Virus record (IMG/VR): IMGVR_UViG_3300030019_000075
Span: 1-40,895 of that record
Reading direction: 5' to 3' (one strand)
Source: a virus
Length of the DNA: 40,895 nucleotides
The notes beneath the pieces are model-generated. The model saw nothing but the letters and a program-made list of their open reading frames with translations, ran no database searches and was not told where the DNA came from. Position numbers and translations under genes: made by a program. Each line of letters begins with the position of its first letter. Position 1 is the first letter of the stretch. Below, one piece after another: positions 3,739-40,895 of the stretch.

Positions 3739-4916
3739 TATTTTTTCTTTCCAAAGTTATTAAATATATTCTTTACTTTGCCCTCAGCTGTTGCTGCGGC
3801 TTTAATCGCCTTGTCGCGGCTAGTTGGTTCAGCGCGGTTATAGATGCTATCAATATCATCCTCTTCCTCGATGACGCGGGCAGTATTATCAGGGATACCA
3901 TACCAGTGCCCATCCTGGACACTCTTTGCAGTGCGGAGGTAGGTAATGCCATCCTTTTCGAACTTACCAGCAACAGGAAGGGTCGTGCCAACCTTAATGG
4001 CCTTATTAGGCTGTTCATTTGCAAGATCTGTGATAATTGTATCAACAGCTGCTTTATAATTTACGACGTTCAAGAACTTGATCCAACTGCTTTGCCATTT
4101 ATCTGGGTCAGCCGGCACGATACGCACAGGAACGCTGACAGACGTATCTTTTGGCTCTTCAACATCAAGTGCAACGATATCTTTAATTTCTGTCGGAGTA
4201 AGTGGAATAACCGGATCAGGATCATCATTACCGATATGAATAATTGGTTCAGGCTCAATAATGCTAGTCTCTGCAATTGGTTTAATATTATCAAGTATAT
4301 TGATCCACCAGCCCGGGCCAGCAAGGTCATTAGTCAGGTTAATAGCACTCTCTAGTTGATCAAACACATAGAAGCCACCAAGTGGCATTTCACCAAGTGG
4401 GTTAATATGCTGCATAGCGTCCGTAGATGAGCCGTAGCCATTGAGTACAGTAATTACCTCATAAGTATTAGGCGTTACGTCAATAGGCGCTACGAGGGGC
4501 TTTGAATAGCTTGAGGGAAGGACGGGATATTTCTCATATGTTGTTGAGGCTACAATCTCACCATAGATAGCTGCATCTTTACTAAGGCCATCATAGCTAT
4601 CAATAATTTTTGTGAAGTCTTCAGGGTCAGTGATAGCATAGGTTGTTTTGCTTTGGCCATCAACACCCTTATAAAGGAACTGATGAATAGTACACTCATT
4701 TGGCTGCTGTATTTTTGAGATGCCAATTGCCGGTTCAAGATATGAAACACTTGACCAGCTTAAAGACTCTTGTAATTCAGAGATATCAGTTGGCTCGATT
4801 GTATAGCCAAATCGTTCAATTAGATTAGTAAAGGCAATGATTAGTGCGCCACCTTCGGCAATAGTAATGTCAGTGTTTCCAATTGTCTGAGAAAAGTCTT
4901 TTTGGCAGTATGTCAT
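3738..4916 (-). CDS. Probable virion-associated protein, unknown family
   Basis: 392 aa with ribosome binding site AAGGAC just upstream (the same leader motif as the fibre gene before it). The N-terminal third is globular and acidic; residues about 210-245 form a Pro/Glu/Asp-rich linker (EPEPIIHIGNDDPDPVIP); a second globular segment includes GKFEKDGITYLRTAKSVQDGHWYGIP, which resembles a small beta domain; the C-terminus is a basic helix ending GKKK. Position between the tail fibre and the holin-like gene suggests a tail or host-contact protein. I recognise no family. Confidence 0.6.
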   Translation of the reverse strand: MTYCQKDFSQTIGNTDITIAEGGALIIAFTNLIERFGYTIEPTDISELQESLSWSSVSYLEPAIGISKIQQPNECTIHQFLYKGVDGQSKTTYAITDPEDFTKIIDSYDGLSKDAAIYGEIVASTTYEKYPVLPSSYSKPLVAPIDVTPNTYEVITVLNGYGSSTDAMQHINPLGEMPLGGFYVFDQLESAINLTNDLAGPGWWINILDNIKPIAETSIIEPEPIIHIGNDDPDPVIPLTPTEIKDIVALDVEEPKDTSVSVPVRIVPADPDKWQSSWIKFLNVVNYKAAVDTIITDLANEQPNKAIKVGTTLPVAGKFEKDGITYLRTAKSVQDGHWYGIPDNTARVIEEEDDIDSIYNRAEPTSRDKAIKAAATAEGKVKNIFNNFGKKK

Positions 4917-4958
4917 GATGATTGTCCTTATGTTATCACTTTTTATGAATTTATTGAC

Positions 4959-6419
4959 CTATTTTACGTAGTAGAGAGTAAGGTATATAGTTCCATTTGC
5001 ACCAGCAAATAAAGCAACCTGCCAAACACCACCAGAGATACGGATTTTTGCTTGAGCATTTTGGGCAGTTGGTGCCGCAGCATTAACATATTGGAATGGG
5101 AATAGGTCAGTACCAACCAATACACCACCCTCTGCTTTTACAACCATAGATACTGATGGTGCAATATTAAGGTTAAATGCCTGCTCTGACCCACTACCCG
5201 TAACAGATTGAACAAAGGTAGTCTTATATATTGGCCTACCATCAATCCAAGTTGTTCCAGTATTTACCTCGGCCCGGCTAAAACTGTTATTTGCAACTGT
5301 AAGGTCTATCTTACTAAAAGGAAAATTATATGGAATAGCAACCGTAGAATAGCTTATCGCACTCAATCCACCACTTGTTGGGATAGTACATCCTTCTGGT
5401 ACTTGAACAGTCATTGTTGAATTAGTTGAGAATATTATTGATTTAATAACACCAAAATCAAGTGTTGGGCTGATAATACCAGAAGCTTGATTTCCAAATG
5501 GCGACCCTGCTGTATAACCAGCAGAACCCTGGGCTGTCAGATTATTTGGTGTTGTAGTCATGAGGTCAGTTGCAACTCCATTGAATGAGTATGCGGATAG
5601 TAGTGTTGGTTCAGATCCTGTGAGTCCCTGCGAAAATAACGAAAGGATAGTAGCTGCCGAAAGTACAGATGAAAATACCCCAGTATAGCTAATTAAGCCA
5701 GTAAATGGTTCATTTCCACCAGTAAAAGCTCCGACCGTTAGATCGCCAGCTTGAATAAGTGAAGTACTACCTGTACCAATATTTGATGTTATAGATGGCA
5801 TTAAGTCACCATCAACGTATAAACTTATTGTCCCGGCCATATCAACAGATGCAGCACAAAAACTCGTCTTATTAATAGGCACCGTCTGATAGGTAGTTGC
5901 TGTTTTACCAACAGCTCCACTTGCACCATTAAAGGCTTGCACAAATAGTCTACCACTTGAATCAAGACCCATCTGCCACCCAGCAACACTCGTAGTAGTA
6001 CCTCGACGGGCAATAATTGTCTGGTTCCCGCCCGTATAGGCTGTGGGCTTAACCCATCCAATAATAGTAAATAGGTTAGTAAATACTAGCTTATTTGGCG
6101 CTGTATTATTCCACCACTGAGTACCACTTAGTATTGTTGACTGTGTTGATGAAGAAACATTTCTCTTTGTCATCAATCTCATTTCAGGACTTAATATTCC
6201 AGTATAGTCAACTGATGGAAAAATTAGTTGATAAAGCCTTTTTCCTAGGTATGTAATTGAGTTTGGTAATACCGATAGACCTTTCCAGTCAGTCAACAGT
6301 GATGCTGGTGTTGCACGATCTGTGACACCAGCTGATACGATTGGAATTTGATCAGTAGGGGTCGGCGCTGCTAGTGAAGGCAGTTGTGAGATTTTTATTC
6401 CGTCTGTAGGCATTACCAT
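4959..6419 (-). CDS. Tail fibre / receptor-binding protein with LamG-like domain
   Basis: 486 aa. The N-terminus (DGIKISQLPSLAAPTPTDQIP) is the short repeat-like anchor seen at the start of many phage fibres. Residues about 110-275 match a concanavalin A-like/LamG jelly roll: FTIIGWVKP, a GWQMGLDSSGRL strand, SLYVDGDL and the closing VGAFTGGNEPFTGLISYTGVFSSVLS. That fold binds glycans or proteins. The C-terminal 130 residues are beta-rich and may trimerise. Position after the tail-tip gene supports a host-binding fibre. The start could also be the ATG two codons later. Ligand unknown. Confidence 0.8.
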   Translation of the reverse strand: MVMPTDGIKISQLPSLAAPTPTDQIPIVSAGVTDRATPASLLTDWKGLSVLPNSITYLGKRLYQLIFPSVDYTGILSPEMRLMTKRNVSSSTQSTILSGTQWWNNTAPNKLVFTNLFTIIGWVKPTAYTGGNQTIIARRGTTTSVAGWQMGLDSSGRLFVQAFNGASGAVGKTATTYQTVPINKTSFCAASVDMAGTISLYVDGDLMPSITSNIGTGSTSLIQAGDLTVGAFTGGNEPFTGLISYTGVFSSVLSAATILSLFSQGLTGSEPTLLSAYSFNGVATDLMTTTPNNLTAQGSAGYTAGSPFGNQASGIISPTLDFGVIKSIIFSTNSTMTVQVPEGCTIPTSGGLSAISYSTVAIPYNFPFSKIDLTVANNSFSRAEVNTGTTWIDGRPIYKTTFVQSVTGSGSEQAFNLNIAPSVSMVVKAEGGVLVGTDLFPFQYVNAAAPTAQNAQAKIRISGGVWQVALFAGANGTIYLTLYYVK

Positions 6420-15342: not shown

Positions 15343-16335
15343 TTAACCCGCCGCAATCAGATACCATACACCAGATGTCGTTGTGCTAATAACTGTAACG
15401 TACTTATTTTGTGTCGATAGTACATAATTGGTTGCGCCGTCAATAGTTCCTATAACTGTAATAGCATTAGCCGTTGCATCAATCTTCTTGATTGTATAGC
15501 GGTATCCAGCAGTAACAACAGCCGGAAGAGTTACGTTAAAAGCAGCAGTTGTTGCATCACAAATCTGAACCTCTGGGGTTGTAATTGCTAATGTGATTGC
15601 TGATGACCTTACGGTTGTGGTTGTTCGTATATTTCCTGATAATACAACGCTCCCTGATGTTGCAAGTGTATATGTTGTACTGACTGCACGCAGACCAAGA
15701 TTTGATAATACGGCCCCAAGATCAGTAGTTGCAGCTTGTTGAACAACAGGAGTAGCGCCAAAGAAAGCTAACTTCTCCGTTGTACTGAGGCCAATCTTCG
15801 TGCCGGTTGTTATGCCAAGGTCAATATTCACACCATCAGTCATGATAATATTTCCAGTAATTGTATCGCCAGCCTTAGATACTTTTAGCGCATCAGCTGC
15901 AGCTTGAGCCGTTGAGACGGGTTTATTTATATCACTCGTATTATCAACATTTCCTTGGTTGATAACATGACTATTAAGTGTGATCTCATTTGCGTTGATT
16001 GTTGTAGTAATGTCATTTATATGCTGAGACATCATGAGAAGCGCCATAAGGGGCGTTCCAGCATGAATGTTGGGAAGTGGTCGTGATAGCGTTAGCGTAC
16101 CTGTAGCAGCCGATCCGATGACGGCAGCTGTGACCATAACCTTCTCCATATTTGGATCAGTGCCTGGGTTAGGATATGTAACATCATCCCAAATAGTAAG
16201 GATATAACCATAAGTAAAAGCGGGTAGCTTGGTTGTATCAATGCCTATTAGGGTGATGGGTGAGGTTATATTATTAAGAGTATCAAGGTTGGTACGCGCA
16301 CTAGCATTATCTTTTATTTGAAGAAAGTTGCTCAT
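15343..16335 (-). CDS. Head-fibre / fibre-like protein
   Basis: 330 aa, beta-rich. Residues about 130-150 (DNTSDINKPVSTAQAAADAL) are a fibre repeat seen in tail and head fibres, followed by SKAGDTITGNIIMTDG, a collar-like repeat unit, and a C-terminal domain (VTLPAVVTAGYRYTIKKI, ending TSGVWYLIA) common at fibre tips. It is encoded between the major capsid and the connector genes rather than with the tail fibres, which suggests a capsid-borne fibre as in phi29-like or other decorated heads. Tail attachment is not excluded. Confidence 0.65.
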   Translation of the reverse strand: MSNFLQIKDNASARTNLDTLNNITSPITLIGIDTTKLPAFTYGYILTIWDDVTYPNPGTDPNMEKVMVTAAVIGSAATGTLTLSRPLPNIHAGTPLMALLMMSQHINDITTTINANEITLNSHVINQGNVDNTSDINKPVSTAQAAADALKVSKAGDTITGNIIMTDGVNIDLGITTGTKIGLSTTEKLAFFGATPVVQQAATTDLGAVLSNLGLRAVSTTYTLATSGSVVLSGNIRTTTTVRSSAITLAITTPEVQICDATTAAFNVTLPAVVTAGYRYTIKKIDATANAITVIGTIDGATNYVLSTQNKYVTVISTTTSGVWYLIAAG

Positions 16336-28105: not shown

Positions 28106-28182
28106 TGGCACGCTCGGAAGGCTTCGAACCCTCAAATTCCAGATCCAAAATCTGGTGACTTTGCCAGTTTGTCTACAAGCGT
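28106..28182 (-). tRNA. tRNA-Gln (anticodon TTG)
   Basis: 77 bases including an encoded CCA. Acceptor ACGCTTG / CGAGCGT, discriminator G, anticodon stem CCAGA/TCTGG around loop TTTTGGA, T arm GAGGG-TTCGAAG-CCTTC. All arms pair. Reads CAA codons. Confidence 0.93.
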
Positions 28183-28185
28183 ATA

Positions 28186-28259
28186 TGGCTCCAACGGAAG
28201 GACTCGAACCTTCGTCTACCGGTTAACAGCCGGCTGTTCTACCATTGAACTACATTGAA
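28186..28259 (-). tRNA. tRNA-Asn (anticodon GTT)
   Basis: 74 bases with encoded CCA. Acceptor TTCAATG / CGTTGGA, discriminator G, anticodon stem GCCGG/CCGGT around loop CTGTTAA, T arm with GGTTCGAGTCC. Three bases separate it from tRNA-Gln. Confidence 0.95.
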
Positions 28260-28262
28260 ATA

Positions 28263-28337
28263 TGGTCAAGGCGAAAGGATTTAAACCTTCGATCTCACGT
28301 TCCCAAAACGTGCGTGATACCACTTCACTACACCCTG
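28263..28337 (-). tRNA. tRNA-Pro (anticodon TGG)
   Basis: 75 bases with encoded CCA. Acceptor CAGGGTG / CGCCTTG, discriminator A, anticodon stem CACGT/ACGTG around loop TTTGGGA, T arm GAAGG-TTTAAAT-CCTTT, which has TTTAAAT in place of the usual TTCRANT. Three bases separate it from tRNA-Asn. Confidence 0.92.
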
Positions 28338-33115: not shown

Positions 33116-33205
33116 GAAGTTTTGACCCTTTCATATTTGCTGATGTCCTTATAGTACTCCCTAATTATCATAATGTCTATAGTTTTTATCATAATCTTTT
33201 TGGGA

Positions 33206-33248
33206 AAGAAAAAGCCCTCAACAATTTTCGCAGATATCGTTGAAGGCT
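33206..33248 (-). terminator. Intrinsic terminator after the ParB-like gene
   Basis: On the minus strand AGCCTTCAAC pairs with GTTGAGGGCT (10 bp with one G-U) and is followed by TTTTTC. On the plus strand the G-U becomes an A/C mismatch and no T tract follows, so it works on the minus strand, separating the ParB-like transcript from the small-gene operon. Confidence 0.8.
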
Positions 33249-33329
33249 CACATAAAACTCTCAGTGGTGATCAGGTAGATCACTGCCGTCTATTATAGCG
33301 GAAGTATGTATTTTGTCTATAATAAACAT

Positions 33330-33392
33330 CCCCCTGTGGAAAGATCATTGAAAGGGTCAAAACAATCATAATCAATTCGTAGTCACAGGGGG
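33330..33392. repeat. Inverted repeat enclosing a shared 13-base leader motif
   Basis: CCCCCTGTG (33330-33338) and CACAGGGGG (33384-33392) are perfect partners around a 45-base loop that contains TGAAAGGGTCAAA (33349-33361). The same 13 bases occur at 33133-33121 (minus) and 35182-35194 (plus), each in a leader. A structured RNA or regulator site is likely. Confidence 0.5.
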
Positions 33393-35132: not shown

Positions 35133-35161
35133 TTGCACATCGTTGTCCTGGGACATATAAT
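35133..35161 (+). promoter_or_regulatory. Strong promoter of the recombination / RNA operon
   Basis: TTGCAC (35133-35138), 17-base spacing, TATAAT (35156-35161). This is the best promoter on the right side of the window. It reads into a 215-base leader, the structured RNA and recT. It is divergent from the DUF559 promoter. Confidence 0.75.
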
Positions 35162-35201
35162 GAAGCTACAACTCAAACACATGAAAGGGTCAAAGAAAAT
35201 C

Positions 35202-35369
35202 ATGAAAAAATCCCCCCGGGGGCATAGCGACTTGTCGTTAAGAAATCTATTAAGTATCATCGTGATACCAAAAGAGAGCACGACAATTTTTATCACTAAG
35301 ATCCATACCAGAAGCAAAAAGATTGAAGTCGATCAATTTGTGACCTGGCGACAATTTATCAAAGCATAA
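35202..35369 (+). CDS. Possible small leader protein (55 aa)
   Basis: ATG 35202 with AAAGGG upstream (12 bases). MKKSPRGHSDLSLRNLLSII, later KKIEVDQFVTWRQF. The frame overlaps a stem TTGTCGT (35233) / ACGACAA with an inner GTATCA/TGATAC hairpin and TTTTTA tail, so the segment may be an attenuator rather than a gene. Equal evidence both ways. Confidence 0.3.
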   Translation: MKKSPRGHSDLSLRNLLSIIVIPKESTTIFITKIHTRSKKIEVDQFVTWRQFIKA

Positions 35370-35383
35370 TAAGAACATTAAAA

Positions 35384-35739
35384 ATTCAGTCAGTACATGG
35401 ACATATAGGCAGCAGCTCGAGATGTGTTGCGGAGATAATTTCGGTAATAGACACATGTCACTAAGTGAGTTCGAATCTCACTACGTAACCGCCTATATGT
35501 TCAACATGGCTATATAAGTAATCGCAATGAGTTAATTGCTGAAAGAGTCAAACCGATTTATATAGTCAAGGTAATGGATACCCCCAGTGCAACTTTAGGG
35601 GGTCAGGTGTTGCGCTAACTTCATTACCGAAGCTAGTAGTGGAAGGGCAGCTAAAAGAGTAATCTGCGGCAGCTAAGGACTTTCGAGTCTAAATCCGACT
35701 AAGGCCAGGTTCACTACTAGCACCATGTACTGACTGAAT
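35384..35739 (+). ncRNA. Large structured RNA element, 356 nt, unidentified
   Basis: Perfect 17-bp terminal helix: ATTCAGTCAGTACATGG (35384-35400) with CCATGTACTGACTGAAT (35723-35739). Inside are four more long helices in series: P2 ACATATAGGC/GCCTATATGT (35401-35410/35491-35500), P3 GGCTATATAA/TTATATAGTC (35508-35517/35558-35567), P4 GGTAATGGA/TTCATTACC (35570-35578/35620-35628), P5 GCTAGTAGTG/CACTACTAGC (35632-35641/35712-35721). P2 contains ATGTGT/ACACAT and a T-arm-like GTGAG-TTCGAAT-CTCAC (35465-35481). P4 encloses two interleaved pairings, CCCCC/GGGGG and AGTGCAAC/GTTGCGCT, a possible pseudoknot or switch. P5 contains a TTCG tetraloop hairpin. It is not a tRNA, tmRNA or group I/II intron by recognisable motifs. 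It ends five bases before the recT ribosome binding site. Confidence 0.85.
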
Positions 35740-35744
35740 TAATC

Positions 35745-35751
35745 GAAGGAG
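35745..35751 (+). promoter_or_regulatory. recT ribosome binding site next to the RNA helix
   Basis: GAAGGAG lies five bases after the terminal helix of the structured RNA and four bases before the ATG. A ribosome bound here would contact or compete with the helix foot, so RNA folding could affect recT translation. Confidence 0.7.
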
Positions 35752-36747: not shown

Positions 36748-37404
36748 ATGATCGCCATTGCCGAAGAAGTAATTGTCGAACAAAACACCGATGAATGGTT
36801 CGATATACGCCGACCCCTCGTTACATCAAGCGAATTAAATAATGTACTGATGGATGAGGGTAAGGCTGGGTATAGGAACTATCATGCACAAAAAGTCCTT
36901 GAAATCATGACCGGGACAACACCAGAGCGATTCAAGGGTAATAAATATACAGACTGGGGTCATGACACTGAGGATCTCGCCGCGACGATGTATAGCCTTG
37001 AAACAGGTAATCAAGTCCGAAAGTGTGGCATCTTCGTTCATAAATGGATGGCCCTTGGCGACTCGCCAGATTTGATCGTTATTGATCAACCAGGCTGCGT
37101 TGAGATTAAGGCAAAGAATAGCGCCAACCACCTCATCATCCTAAAGAGTCATAAGTTGCCGAATGAATACAAGGCACAGGTACAGAATCACATTCAGATG
37201 ACCGGTAGCGAATGGTGTGACTTTGTGTCATTCGATCCAGACTTTCCGCTTAATGCGCAGCTGGTGATCATCCGTATCTATAAAGATGAGGATTATTGTA
37301 AGAAAATACTGATTGAAGTGTCACTATTCATGGATTCAGTTGAAGCCGATATTAAATTTTTAAATGAGTATAAGGGAGAAGTTTATGGAATTAGAGAAGT
37401 TTGA
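36748..37404 (+). CDS. YqaJ-family viral recombinase exonuclease
   Basis: 218 aa, lambda-exonuclease fold. Motifs: WFDIRRPLVTSSEL (Arg21-Arg22), GHDTEDLA (Glu75), SPDLIV (Asp108), and VEIKAKN (Glu119, Lys121), followed by EYKAQVQNHIQMTG with the conserved Gln. It resects 5' strands of duplex ends to expose single strands for RecT. Two bases after recT. Confidence 0.93.
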   Translation: MIAIAEEVIVEQNTDEWFDIRRPLVTSSELNNVLMDEGKAGYRNYHAQKVLEIMTGTTPERFKGNKYTDWGHDTEDLAATMYSLETGNQVRKCGIFVHKWMALGDSPDLIVIDQPGCVEIKAKNSANHLIILKSHKLPNEYKAQVQNHIQMTGSEWCDFVSFDPDFPLNAQLVIIRIYKDEDYCKKILIEVSLFMDSVEADIKFLNEYKGEVYGIREV

Positions 37405-38729: not shown

Positions 38730-39142
38730 TGTCAGACCGATTAGAACAAGCAAACACTATCTTGACCCAGACCTATGCTATCGACTCAACAAAGCTAGCC
38801 ATTAAGACTCGCAAGGAGATGATCGCTGACCGCGTACAAGAGCGTCAGGCATGGCTAGATCTCGAGTCAGCAAAAGGTGAGGCTGCACGCCTGAAGACTA
38901 TCCTCGATCAGCAGCTCGCGAATGACGGGGCATATAATAATGACCTTGAAGAACTCGGTCAGTTGAAAGATAAATTAAAGTCATTAAACGAAACACTGAG
39001 TGATTTAATTGTTGGCTACCGCATCGAAACCGGTGAACACCAACTTGAGACTAGCCCCGTTGGCGATGCTGTTGAGCTTGTGTTAAAGGGTAAGCTAGGC
39101 AAAAAAGGTAAATATCAAACTAATATGTTCGCAGAGGCATAA
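38729..39142 (+). CDS. Coiled-coil hypothetical protein (137 aa)
   Basis: Starts on the stop of the gene before it. Residues about 40-95 are a charged coiled coil (QERQAWLDLESAKGEAARLK, LGQLKDKLKSLNETLSDLIV), flanked by a basic C-terminal end (LKGKLGKKGKYQTNMFAEA). No family recognised. Its position before rtcB suggests co-expression only. Confidence 0.65.
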   Translation: MSDRLEQANTILTQTYAIDSTKLAIKTRKEMIADRVQERQAWLDLESAKGEAARLKTILDQQLANDGAYNNDLEELGQLKDKLKSLNETLSDLIVGYRIETGEHQLETSPVGDAVELVLKGKLGKKGKYQTNMFAEA

Positions 39143-40317
39143 TGATGAAAAAAATTAGTAAAAAATTACTAAACTGGGCTTCTATTATTGAAGATAATAC
39201 ACAGGCACAAGCAGAACTCACTGCTTCGATGCCGTTTGTTCAACCACACCTGGCCTTAATGCCAGATGCTCACCTCGGTAAGGGTGCAACAGTTGGATCA
39301 GTCATCCCTACAGTTGGGGCTATTATGCCTGCAGCTGTCGGTGTTGATATTGGTTGCGGCATGATTGCAGTGCGAACCCAGTTTGTTAAAAGTGACATTG
39401 AAGGCAAAGACTTGGGCGTACTTCGTCACTCAATTGAACGATCTATCCCACTATCTGCCGGATCATATAATCATAATATTAGTGACTCAGCTGCGGCGCG
39501 TATTGTCGAGTTGTCAGAAATGGCCGGTGATCGCCTACCCTTCTATAATCAACTGACAAAAACAAACTGGACTCACCACCTTGGTACTCTTGGATCAGGT
39601 AATCACTTTGTTGAGGTAACAGTTGATGAAGAGGATCGTGTTTGGCTGTTTCTGCACTCAGGTAGTCGTGGAATTGGTAACTCAATTGCGATGCACCATA
39701 TTAAAGTTGCGATGAATCAGATGGAACGGTATTATATTACCCTTCCAGATAATGACCTTGCCTATTTGGTCGAGGGTACACCCGAGTTTGATCTCTATAT
39801 CCGTGATTTAAACTGGGCACAACACTTTGCTCTTCTTAACCGTGAGGAGATGATGGATCGAGTCGTCCATGACTTTGAACATTTTATGGGTAAAAAGATT
39901 GAAGAATCCGGACGCATTAACTGCCACCACAACTTCACACAAAAGGAACATCACATGGGTCGTGACTTATGGCTTAGCCGTAAGGGTGCAATCCAAGCTG
40001 ATGCCGGTCAACCTGGTTTGATTCCTGGATCAATGGGTACGGCCAGCTACGTTGTGGAAGGCCTTGGTAACAAAGCGGCCTTTGATTCAAGTCCTCACGG
40101 CGCAGGCCGTGTATGGGCGCGTAAAGCTGCCACGCGACACTTTACAATGGAAGATATGGACAAAGAGATGAAGGGAATTGAGTATCGTCGATCTGAAGCC
40201 TTCCTTGATGAGATTCCGAGTGCCTACAAAGATATTGATATTGTTATGGATGATGCCTCTGACCTCGTAAAAATTGTGCATACGTTCCACCAAATTGTGA
40301 ATGTGAAGGGTGAATGA
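39142..40317 (+). CDS. rtcB: RtcB RNA ligase
   Basis: 391 aa; full-length bacterial-type RtcB. Mn-binding and active-site motifs in order: MPDAHLGKGATVG, GVDIGCGM (Cys ligand), LGTLGSGNHFVEV, LHSGSRGIGN, NCHHNF, PGSMGTASYV, and SSPHGAGR (His319, equivalent of the guanylylated histidine). RtcB joins 2',3'-cyclic-phosphate or 3'-phosphate RNA ends to 5'-hydroxyl ends, with GTP. It is a tRNA-repair/splicing enzyme; in phages it can restore tRNAs cut by host anticodon nucleases. All catalytic residues present. Start overlaps the upstream stop (TAATG). Confidence 0.95.
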   Translation: MMKKISKKLLNWASIIEDNTQAQAELTASMPFVQPHLALMPDAHLGKGATVGSVIPTVGAIMPAAVGVDIGCGMIAVRTQFVKSDIEGKDLGVLRHSIERSIPLSAGSYNHNISDSAAARIVELSEMAGDRLPFYNQLTKTNWTHHLGTLGSGNHFVEVTVDEEDRVWLFLHSGSRGIGNSIAMHHIKVAMNQMERYYITLPDNDLAYLVEGTPEFDLYIRDLNWAQHFALLNREEMMDRVVHDFEHFMGKKIEESGRINCHHNFTQKEHHMGRDLWLSRKGAIQADAGQPGLIPGSMGTASYVVEGLGNKAAFDSSPHGAGRVWARKAATRHFTMEDMDKEMKGIEYRRSEAFLDEIPSAYKDIDIVMDDASDLVKIVHTFHQIVNVKGE

Positions 40318-40318
40318 C

Positions 40319-40895
40319 ATGGCTGAAGCATTTCCGCTACAGTGGCCAATGGGGCGAGGTCGCACCGCATATCGTGATAAGAAATATGGTCAATTCAAGG
40401 TAGGCCCCGAAAAAATTAAACGTGACCTATTAAAAGAACTCAGCATGATGAGTGTTACTAATTACGTTATCAATAGCAACTCGAGGTTGAAAGCTGATGG
40501 TATGCCATATGTAAATCAACAAATTGAAGATACAGGCGTTGTACTTTACTTCACCCGTAAGGGACAAGAGATTGCAATTGCTTGTGATAAATACTACCAG
40601 GTGAATGATAACTTGCGCGCAATTGGATTGAGCCTTGGCGCTATCCGTGGCATGGAACGATGGGGCACAGAGGAGATGGTTGATCGCGCGTTTACTGGTT
40701 TTGCAGCACTGCCTGCTAGTTTTGAGATGCCAGCGGGACGAACTCACCGGGAATGGTGGGATGTTCTTGGTGTTGACAGGGGTGCGAATGCCCTGGAAGT
40801 TAAGGCAGCATATAGAGAAGCCCTAAAACTACATCACCCCGACTTTGGTGGCGATGAGGCTGATCTGAAAGATGTGCAACGTGCATATGAAGAGT
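40319..40895 (+). CDS. J-domain protein (3' end outside window; likely fused to the helicase)
   Basis: Starts one base after the rtcB stop. 192 residues are visible. Residues 1-130 match an N-terminal domain found in phage J-domain proteins: AEAFPLQWPMGRGRTAYRDK, YVINSNSRLKADGMPYVNQQ, GVVLYFTRKGQEIAIACDKY, LGAIRGMERWGTEEMVDRAF. Residues about 145-192 are a J-domain (WWDVLGVDRGANALEVKAAY, LHHPDFGG with HPD at 173-175), which stimulates Hsp70 ATPase. No stop before the window end. In the circular reading the next codon completes AYEEL and the frame runs into the helicase at base 3. Confidence 0.9.
   Translation, partial: MAEAFPLQWPMGRGRTAYRDKKYGQFKVGPEKIKRDLLKELSMMSVTNYVINSNSRLKADGMPYVNQQIEDTGVVLYFTRKGQEIAIACDKYYQVNDNLRAIGLSLGAIRGMERWGTEEMVDRAFTGFAALPASFEMPAGRTHREWWDVLGVDRGANALEVKAAYREALKLHHPDFGGDEADLKDVQRAYEE

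Follow-up and report, generated by a model that had tools for sequence, protein, structure and literature searches.

A 358-nt element lying upstream of recT in a viral genome is almost certainly a real folded RNA, and it appears to belong, with a related RNA in a second phage as the only other known member, to an undescribed family of phage structured RNAs. The genome, IMG/VR virus record IMGVR_UViG_3300030019_000075 (40,895 bases), is referred to here in its full length as the window. A preliminary description had proposed the element as a new class of phage-encoded RNA with a structural or regulatory role; this proposal fits the results, and is supported by the lack of an Rfam match and by the homologue. 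The family is recognised from sequence alone and its function is inferred; with only two members, both on metagenome contigs and without expression data, its basis is thin.

Genomic setting of the element

The element (35383-35740, plus strand) occurs once in the record, where the gene direction changes from leftward to rightward. The leftward genes are structural, while the rightward ones comprise recT (PF03837; 35756-36745, plus strand), a gene with a YqaJ-like recombinase domain (starting at 36748), the RNA ligase gene rtcB (PF01139; 39142-40317, plus strand), also present in the phage carrying the homologue, and a DnaJ-domain gene that begins at 40310 and is cut by the end of the window. 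On its 5' side the element adjoins an ORF of 62 codons (35181-35369, plus strand), a mechanical translation not shown to be coding, which ends 13 nt before the closing helix, P1. Further upstream is a candidate sigma-70-like promoter (35134-35161, plus strand, with TATAAT at 35156-35161), a pattern match only, which scored 10/12 in the scan. On the 3' side P1 ends 4 nt before the Shine-Dalgarno sequence of recT (GAAGGAG, 35745-35751, plus strand; read from the sequence), and no terminator-like site was found by scanning between the element and recT. Neither the ORF nor the Shine-Dalgarno sequence directly flanking the element had been mentioned before. It had been stated that no reading frame of note crosses the region; no listed plus-strand ORF of at least 60 aa does so, but two listed minus-strand frames (68 and 89 aa) overlap the two ends. 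The window contains three ordinary tRNA genes, a minus-strand cluster called by ARAGORN at 28106-28337, outside the element.

A second closed stretch was observed at window positions 33119-33363, bounded by a 15-bp inverted repeat (GTTTTGACCCTTTC/GAAAGGGTCAAAAC), with fold z-scores of -4.3 (plus strand) and -6.1 (minus strand). The GAAAGGGTCAAA motif in it is seen again near 35184, and CCCCTGTGG/CACAGGGGG repeats are found near 33340 and 33385, so that a role as operator or promoter is possible for the stretch.

The element folds around a closed five-way junction

P1 is a perfect inverted repeat (35383-35400/35723-35740, plus strand) for which the chance expectation, allowing a loop of up to 600 nt and given the composition of the window, is 0.0005. 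It had been described as perfect and of 17 bp; the perfection stands, the length is 18 bp. The plus strand has a predicted minimum free energy of -128.4 kcal/mol (z = -8.05), and none of 100 shuffled sequences was equally stable, which bears out the claim that the paired arms are far beyond chance; the minus strand of the element gave z = -5.79. Within P1, four arms (P2-P5) meet at the junction. This number agrees with the four further helices first reported, but their base stems span 9-13 bp rather than 9-10 bp. All secondary structures are predictions of energy models, in which P1 and the base stems can be trusted more than the interior of P2, P4 and P5.

The P2 arm (35401-35500, plus strand; z = -3.92) starts from a base stem of 10 bp and contains, besides an inner hairpin, the T-arm-like hairpin GTGAG-TTCGAAT-CTCAC (35465-35481, plus strand), which had been recognised previously; the counterpart assigned to P2 in the homologue is the tRNA-like arm. 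A T-arm scan of the window returned this hairpin as the single plus-strand match, the other match falling in the minus-strand tRNA cluster. The junction strand that follows, together with the 5' strand of P3 (CAACATGG-CTATATAAGT, 35502-35519, plus strand), is conserved, the homologue having CAACATGGGCTATGTAAGT. P3 (35507-35568, plus strand; z = -3.32) has a 13-bp stem with two G-U pairs and an inner hairpin, GCAAT-GAGTTA-ATTGC. P4 (35570-35628, plus strand), with a 9-bp stem including one wobble pair and an ACCCCC/GGGGGT hairpin, is not exceptionally stable when taken alone (z = -1.24; 25 of 200 shuffles). The possible pseudoknot proposed earlier can be drawn in this arm, the hairpin loop at 35586-35593 pairing with 35609-35616 over 8 bp, one of them a wobble. 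P5 (35632-35721, plus strand) combines a 12-bp stem (one wobble), two GGCAGC segments, the conserved CCGACNAAGGCC (35695-35706) and a UUCG hairpin, GACT-TTCG-AGTC (35678-35689, plus strand), which is the TTCG tetraloop already noted. The sequence GCTRAAAGAGT occurs in both P3 and P5, a recurrence judged to be within chance. Wobble pairs occur in the pseudoknot as well as in the stems of P3, P4 and P5. Read from the opposite strand, each of these G-U pairs would turn into an A-C mismatch, which marks the plus strand as that of the RNA.

A homologue in a second phage keeps the fold through compensatory changes

A covariance model built from the window sequence alone was run against the whole records of 42 RtcB-encoding viruses. 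A match was obtained in one of them, IMGVR_UViG_3300011390_000033 (G004; 55,357 bp), with E = 1.7e-10. The match itself covers the P5 arm (G004:50521-50608); the surrounding sequence (L261) extends it to an RNA of 407 nt (G004:50220-50626), and P1-P3 were identified as common by alignment and inspection. The homologue is closed by an 18-bp P1 of different sequence with one mismatch (G004:50220-50237/50609-50626), which encloses an extra arm (P2a), a tRNA-like arm (P2b), P3 and P5. Arm content thus varies, P4 being absent and P2a being present at another place. Folded alone, the homologue reaches -156.7 kcal/mol (z = -7.75) as a closed, four-armed junction.

When the two P1 helices are compared without gaps from the inner end, eight pairs are the same, eight have changed on both sides and still pair, and one is broken. 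In the MAFFT register of P5, none of the 24 predicted pairs is broken, five are double-changed and two show single-side changes; an alternative register of the P5 stem gave more double changes and was not relied on. Since only two sequences are involved, these counts show kept pairing and are no statistical test of the family as a whole. Conserved sequence is concentrated at the P2/P3 junction (CAACAUGG(G)CUAURUAAG) and in P5 (GGGCAGC, GGCAGC, CUUUCGAG and CCGACNAAGGCC). Absence of covariation would have counted against the original proposal; the single homologue found keeps its helices by compensatory change. The two RNAs thus meet the tests for a new family, a significant covariance-model match and compensatory changes (in two sequences), and the RNA in G004 is very probably a true relative of the window element.

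The same data bear on whether the element might act as DNA, either as a miniature inverted-repeat transposable element or as a palindromic site for replication or packaging. Its perfect terminal inverted repeats, the lack of a plus-strand ORF of note between them and its single location at the change of gene direction would suit such a role. This is nonetheless highly improbable: the plus-strand wobble bias, nested arms, pseudoknot and T-arm are not accounted for, the homologous P1 retains pairing without retaining sequence, no second copy exists in the record and no target-site duplication can be read at the ends.

Other closed elements were seen in these records. Just upstream of the homologue, L261:4110-4222 forms another closed hairpin. 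Its 3' side (GCTGCTAGCACCATGCGCTC) is similar to that of P5/P1 in the window (CTACTAGCACCATGTAC), and the hairpin is possibly a partial copy of the RNA. Three other records of RtcB-encoding phages (L038, L039 and L042) contain elements of about 190-200 nt with closing helices of 21-25 bp; an Rfam scan of those in L038 and L042, which did not include L039, gave no match.

The position before recT is not shared by the homologue

The preliminary description placed the element upstream of recT. This is correct for the window but does not hold as a family trait: in G004 the RNA is not beside recT but is preceded by a gene that weakly matches ArdA and followed by a 107-aa frame without annotation. 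(A weak P5-like match of 9.5 bits at L261:4713-4786 was dropped, as it falls inside this frame, 4656-4979.) The location in the window, with P1 ending at 35740, the Shine-Dalgarno sequence starting at 35745 and no terminator in between, invites the idea of a cis-acting leader, in which a change of fold caused by a ligand, a protein or RNase III cutting would set translation of the recombination genes. A constant position before recT, which such a leader should have, is not seen, albeit with one homologue only, and no such RNA was found upstream of the two closest phage relatives of recT or at a Saccharibacteria recT locus; in our judgement, the size and closure of the element also exceed what most leaders need. 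The distance of the homologue from recT makes a switch dedicated to this gene less likely, and the differing downstream genes in the two phages point away from cis control of any one gene. A recT leader is thus unlikely as the general explanation, while a local effect on recT in the window phage remains possible, given that P1 ends 4 nt before its Shine-Dalgarno sequence.

tRNA-like arms

In the homologue, P2b carries a T-arm (GCAGG-TTCGATT-CCTGC) abutting a long acceptor-like stem, and this arm scored 22.6 bits against the Rfam tRNA model, under the cut-off of 29 bits. A second T-arm (AGTGG-TTCGAAT-CCACT) was read as a motif in P3; it is not formed in the minimum-energy fold. The T-arm consensus (G-UUCRANY-C on a paired stem) is therefore met once in the window element and twice in the homologue, the tRNA-like theme being weaker in the former. 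A paired T-arm scan of the whole G004 genome returned exactly two matches, both in the RNA, and ARAGORN called no tRNA genes in that genome, the RNA included. Only one T-arm-like hairpin had been seen initially; judging from the homologue, such tRNA-like arms would seem to be a feature of the family. Neither RNA qualifies as a tRNA or tmRNA: despite the T-arm consensus, no tRNA was called in the window element by Rfam (at least 29 bits) or ARAGORN, the score of the homologous arm is below the cut-off, no anticodon loop is visible and the arms are embedded in a junction.

Arms of this kind might work as tRNA mimics or decoys that bind tRNA-cutting defence nucleases of the host, RNase P/Z or modification enzymes. 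Consensus T-arms in both RNAs, the sub-threshold tRNA match, an RtcB repair ligase in both phages and the three tRNA genes of the window are compatible with this. We regard it as quite improbable. The base stems measure 10-13 bp rather than 7, the RNA is absent from most RtcB phages (one match in the 42 records), and the lack of any visible 7-nt anticodon loop makes a decoy for anticodon nucleases doubtful. T-loops are, moreover, widespread as structural glue; they can provide tertiary contacts or act as recognition sites for tRNA-handling proteins.

Comparison with known RNA families

No Rfam 15 family matched the element at its gathering score, a result that would have refuted novelty had it been otherwise; the best chance match had E = 2.8 and 21.6 bits against a cut-off of 90, and only chance matches appeared up to E = 10. 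The Rfam covariance models of GOLLD and ROOL matched neither the window element nor the homologue. GOLLD RNAs are phage- or prophage-encoded and elaborate, often lie near tRNA islands and have no known function; many are longer than 800 nt, and they have a conserved 3' region in common (PMC12286853). The element is likewise phage-encoded and elaborate but is only 358 nt long and has no Rfam match even at E values up to 10. ROOL RNAs, of which the one studied is 659 nt, are also encoded by phages or prophages, are ornate, contain pseudoknots and form RNA-only assemblies (PMC12286853); the element shares the phage origin, the ornate fold and a possible pseudoknot, and differs in its 358-nt length and in matching no Rfam family. 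Structured RNAs carried by some phages also include the manA and wcaG motifs of cyanophages and marine samples, manA being common in potential 5' UTRs of metabolic genes (PMC2864571). The element resembles these in being a phage-carried structured RNA; it differs in having no Rfam match.

Relatives of the phage, likely host and distribution of the RNA

The portal, capsid, head and tail proteins of the window phage and G004 are about 28-38% identical, the RtcB proteins 72% and the DnaJ-domain proteins 40%. RtcB and a DnaJ-domain protein (PF00226) are encoded by both (window 39142-40895; G004:33100-34278 and 47190-47759), the G004 DnaJ copy matching phrog_9210. A third relative, IMGVR_UViG_3300033181_000085 (G001), has RecT and RtcB proteins 54% and 78% identical to those of the window; the RNA was not found in it with either the single-sequence model or the P5 model. 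G001, which has no ARAGORN tRNA genes, does contain a paired T-arm motif on the minus strand at 16046, in a stretch with CACATGGGCT; this could be a remnant of the family RNA or chance. Following the terminase led only to a 4.5-kb fragment in another metagenome record (L083, IMGVR_UViG_3300030294_000607), whose terminase is 100% identical to that of the window, so that the same virus was seen twice.

Among genomes, the window RtcB was most similar to that of a Saccharibacteria MAG (74%), with a Pseudonocardia MAG and Rhodococcus next; a RecT at 53% was found in another genome of the class of that Saccharibacteria MAG, and portal relatives in INPHARED were mostly phages of Gordonia, Mycobacterium and Arthrobacter. 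These sequence similarities are suggestive, though no proof, of a host among the Saccharibacteria or actinobacteria.

A sample of about 1,150 whole genomes was searched with the P5 model (R2) without a match: 393 and 395 from the classes of the Saccharibacteria MAG and of a Rhodococcus, and 380 drawn evenly phylum-wide, with some overlap; the filters were stricter and no positive control was included, and divergent members are not excluded. About 160 further virus and phage records yielded no member beyond the two described, and the same model applied to selected sets of 65, 50 and 50 records recovered only these two. BLASTN of the window element against INPHARED and PLSDB, and BLAST of the homologue against INPHARED, gave nothing convincing. 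When IMG/VR was scanned with a pattern from the P5 core, the known homologue was the sole result among the matches listed. Matches to loop-sequence patterns in IMG/VR look like chance; the five to the P3 pattern were read individually, and the others were checked only by BLAST or nhmmer against the element.

A possible mode of action and its implications

A perfect helix around a compact body is the arrangement by which RNase III frees rRNA from its precursor. From its position between the ORF and recT, with no terminator-like site before the latter, the element would be part of one early transcript that also includes its neighbours, in the order ORF, RNA, recT. Release through a cut within the 18-bp P1 or next to it is then the simplest inference, with RNase III as the obvious candidate, by comparison with the processing stems of rRNA precursors. 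Being paired over most of its length, the freed RNA would be expected to survive as a stable molecule. It could then act in trans, serving as a scaffold or binding some factor of the host or the phage, its T-loop and tRNA-like arms providing tertiary contacts or recognition by tRNA-handling proteins. In the absence of transcript data, the RNase III cutting, the stability and the trans action are all inferred, and we would give this excised, trans-acting RNA about an even chance of being correct. Bolder, and improbable on present evidence, is the idea of a family in which several tRNA-like modules surround a sealed junction, are excised early and imitate tRNAs, thereby occupying or misleading the tRNA-handling or tRNA-cutting defence proteins of the host, in phages that carry an RNA-repair ligase.

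The fast change of sequence around a stable fold would explain how such RNAs can escape family libraries. Compared with GOLLD and ROOL, large RNAs whose function is unknown, a smaller closed RNA of this kind would be easier to handle: at 358 nt it can be made by in vitro transcription, its ends are sharply defined, and its tRNA-like arms point to specific binding partners.
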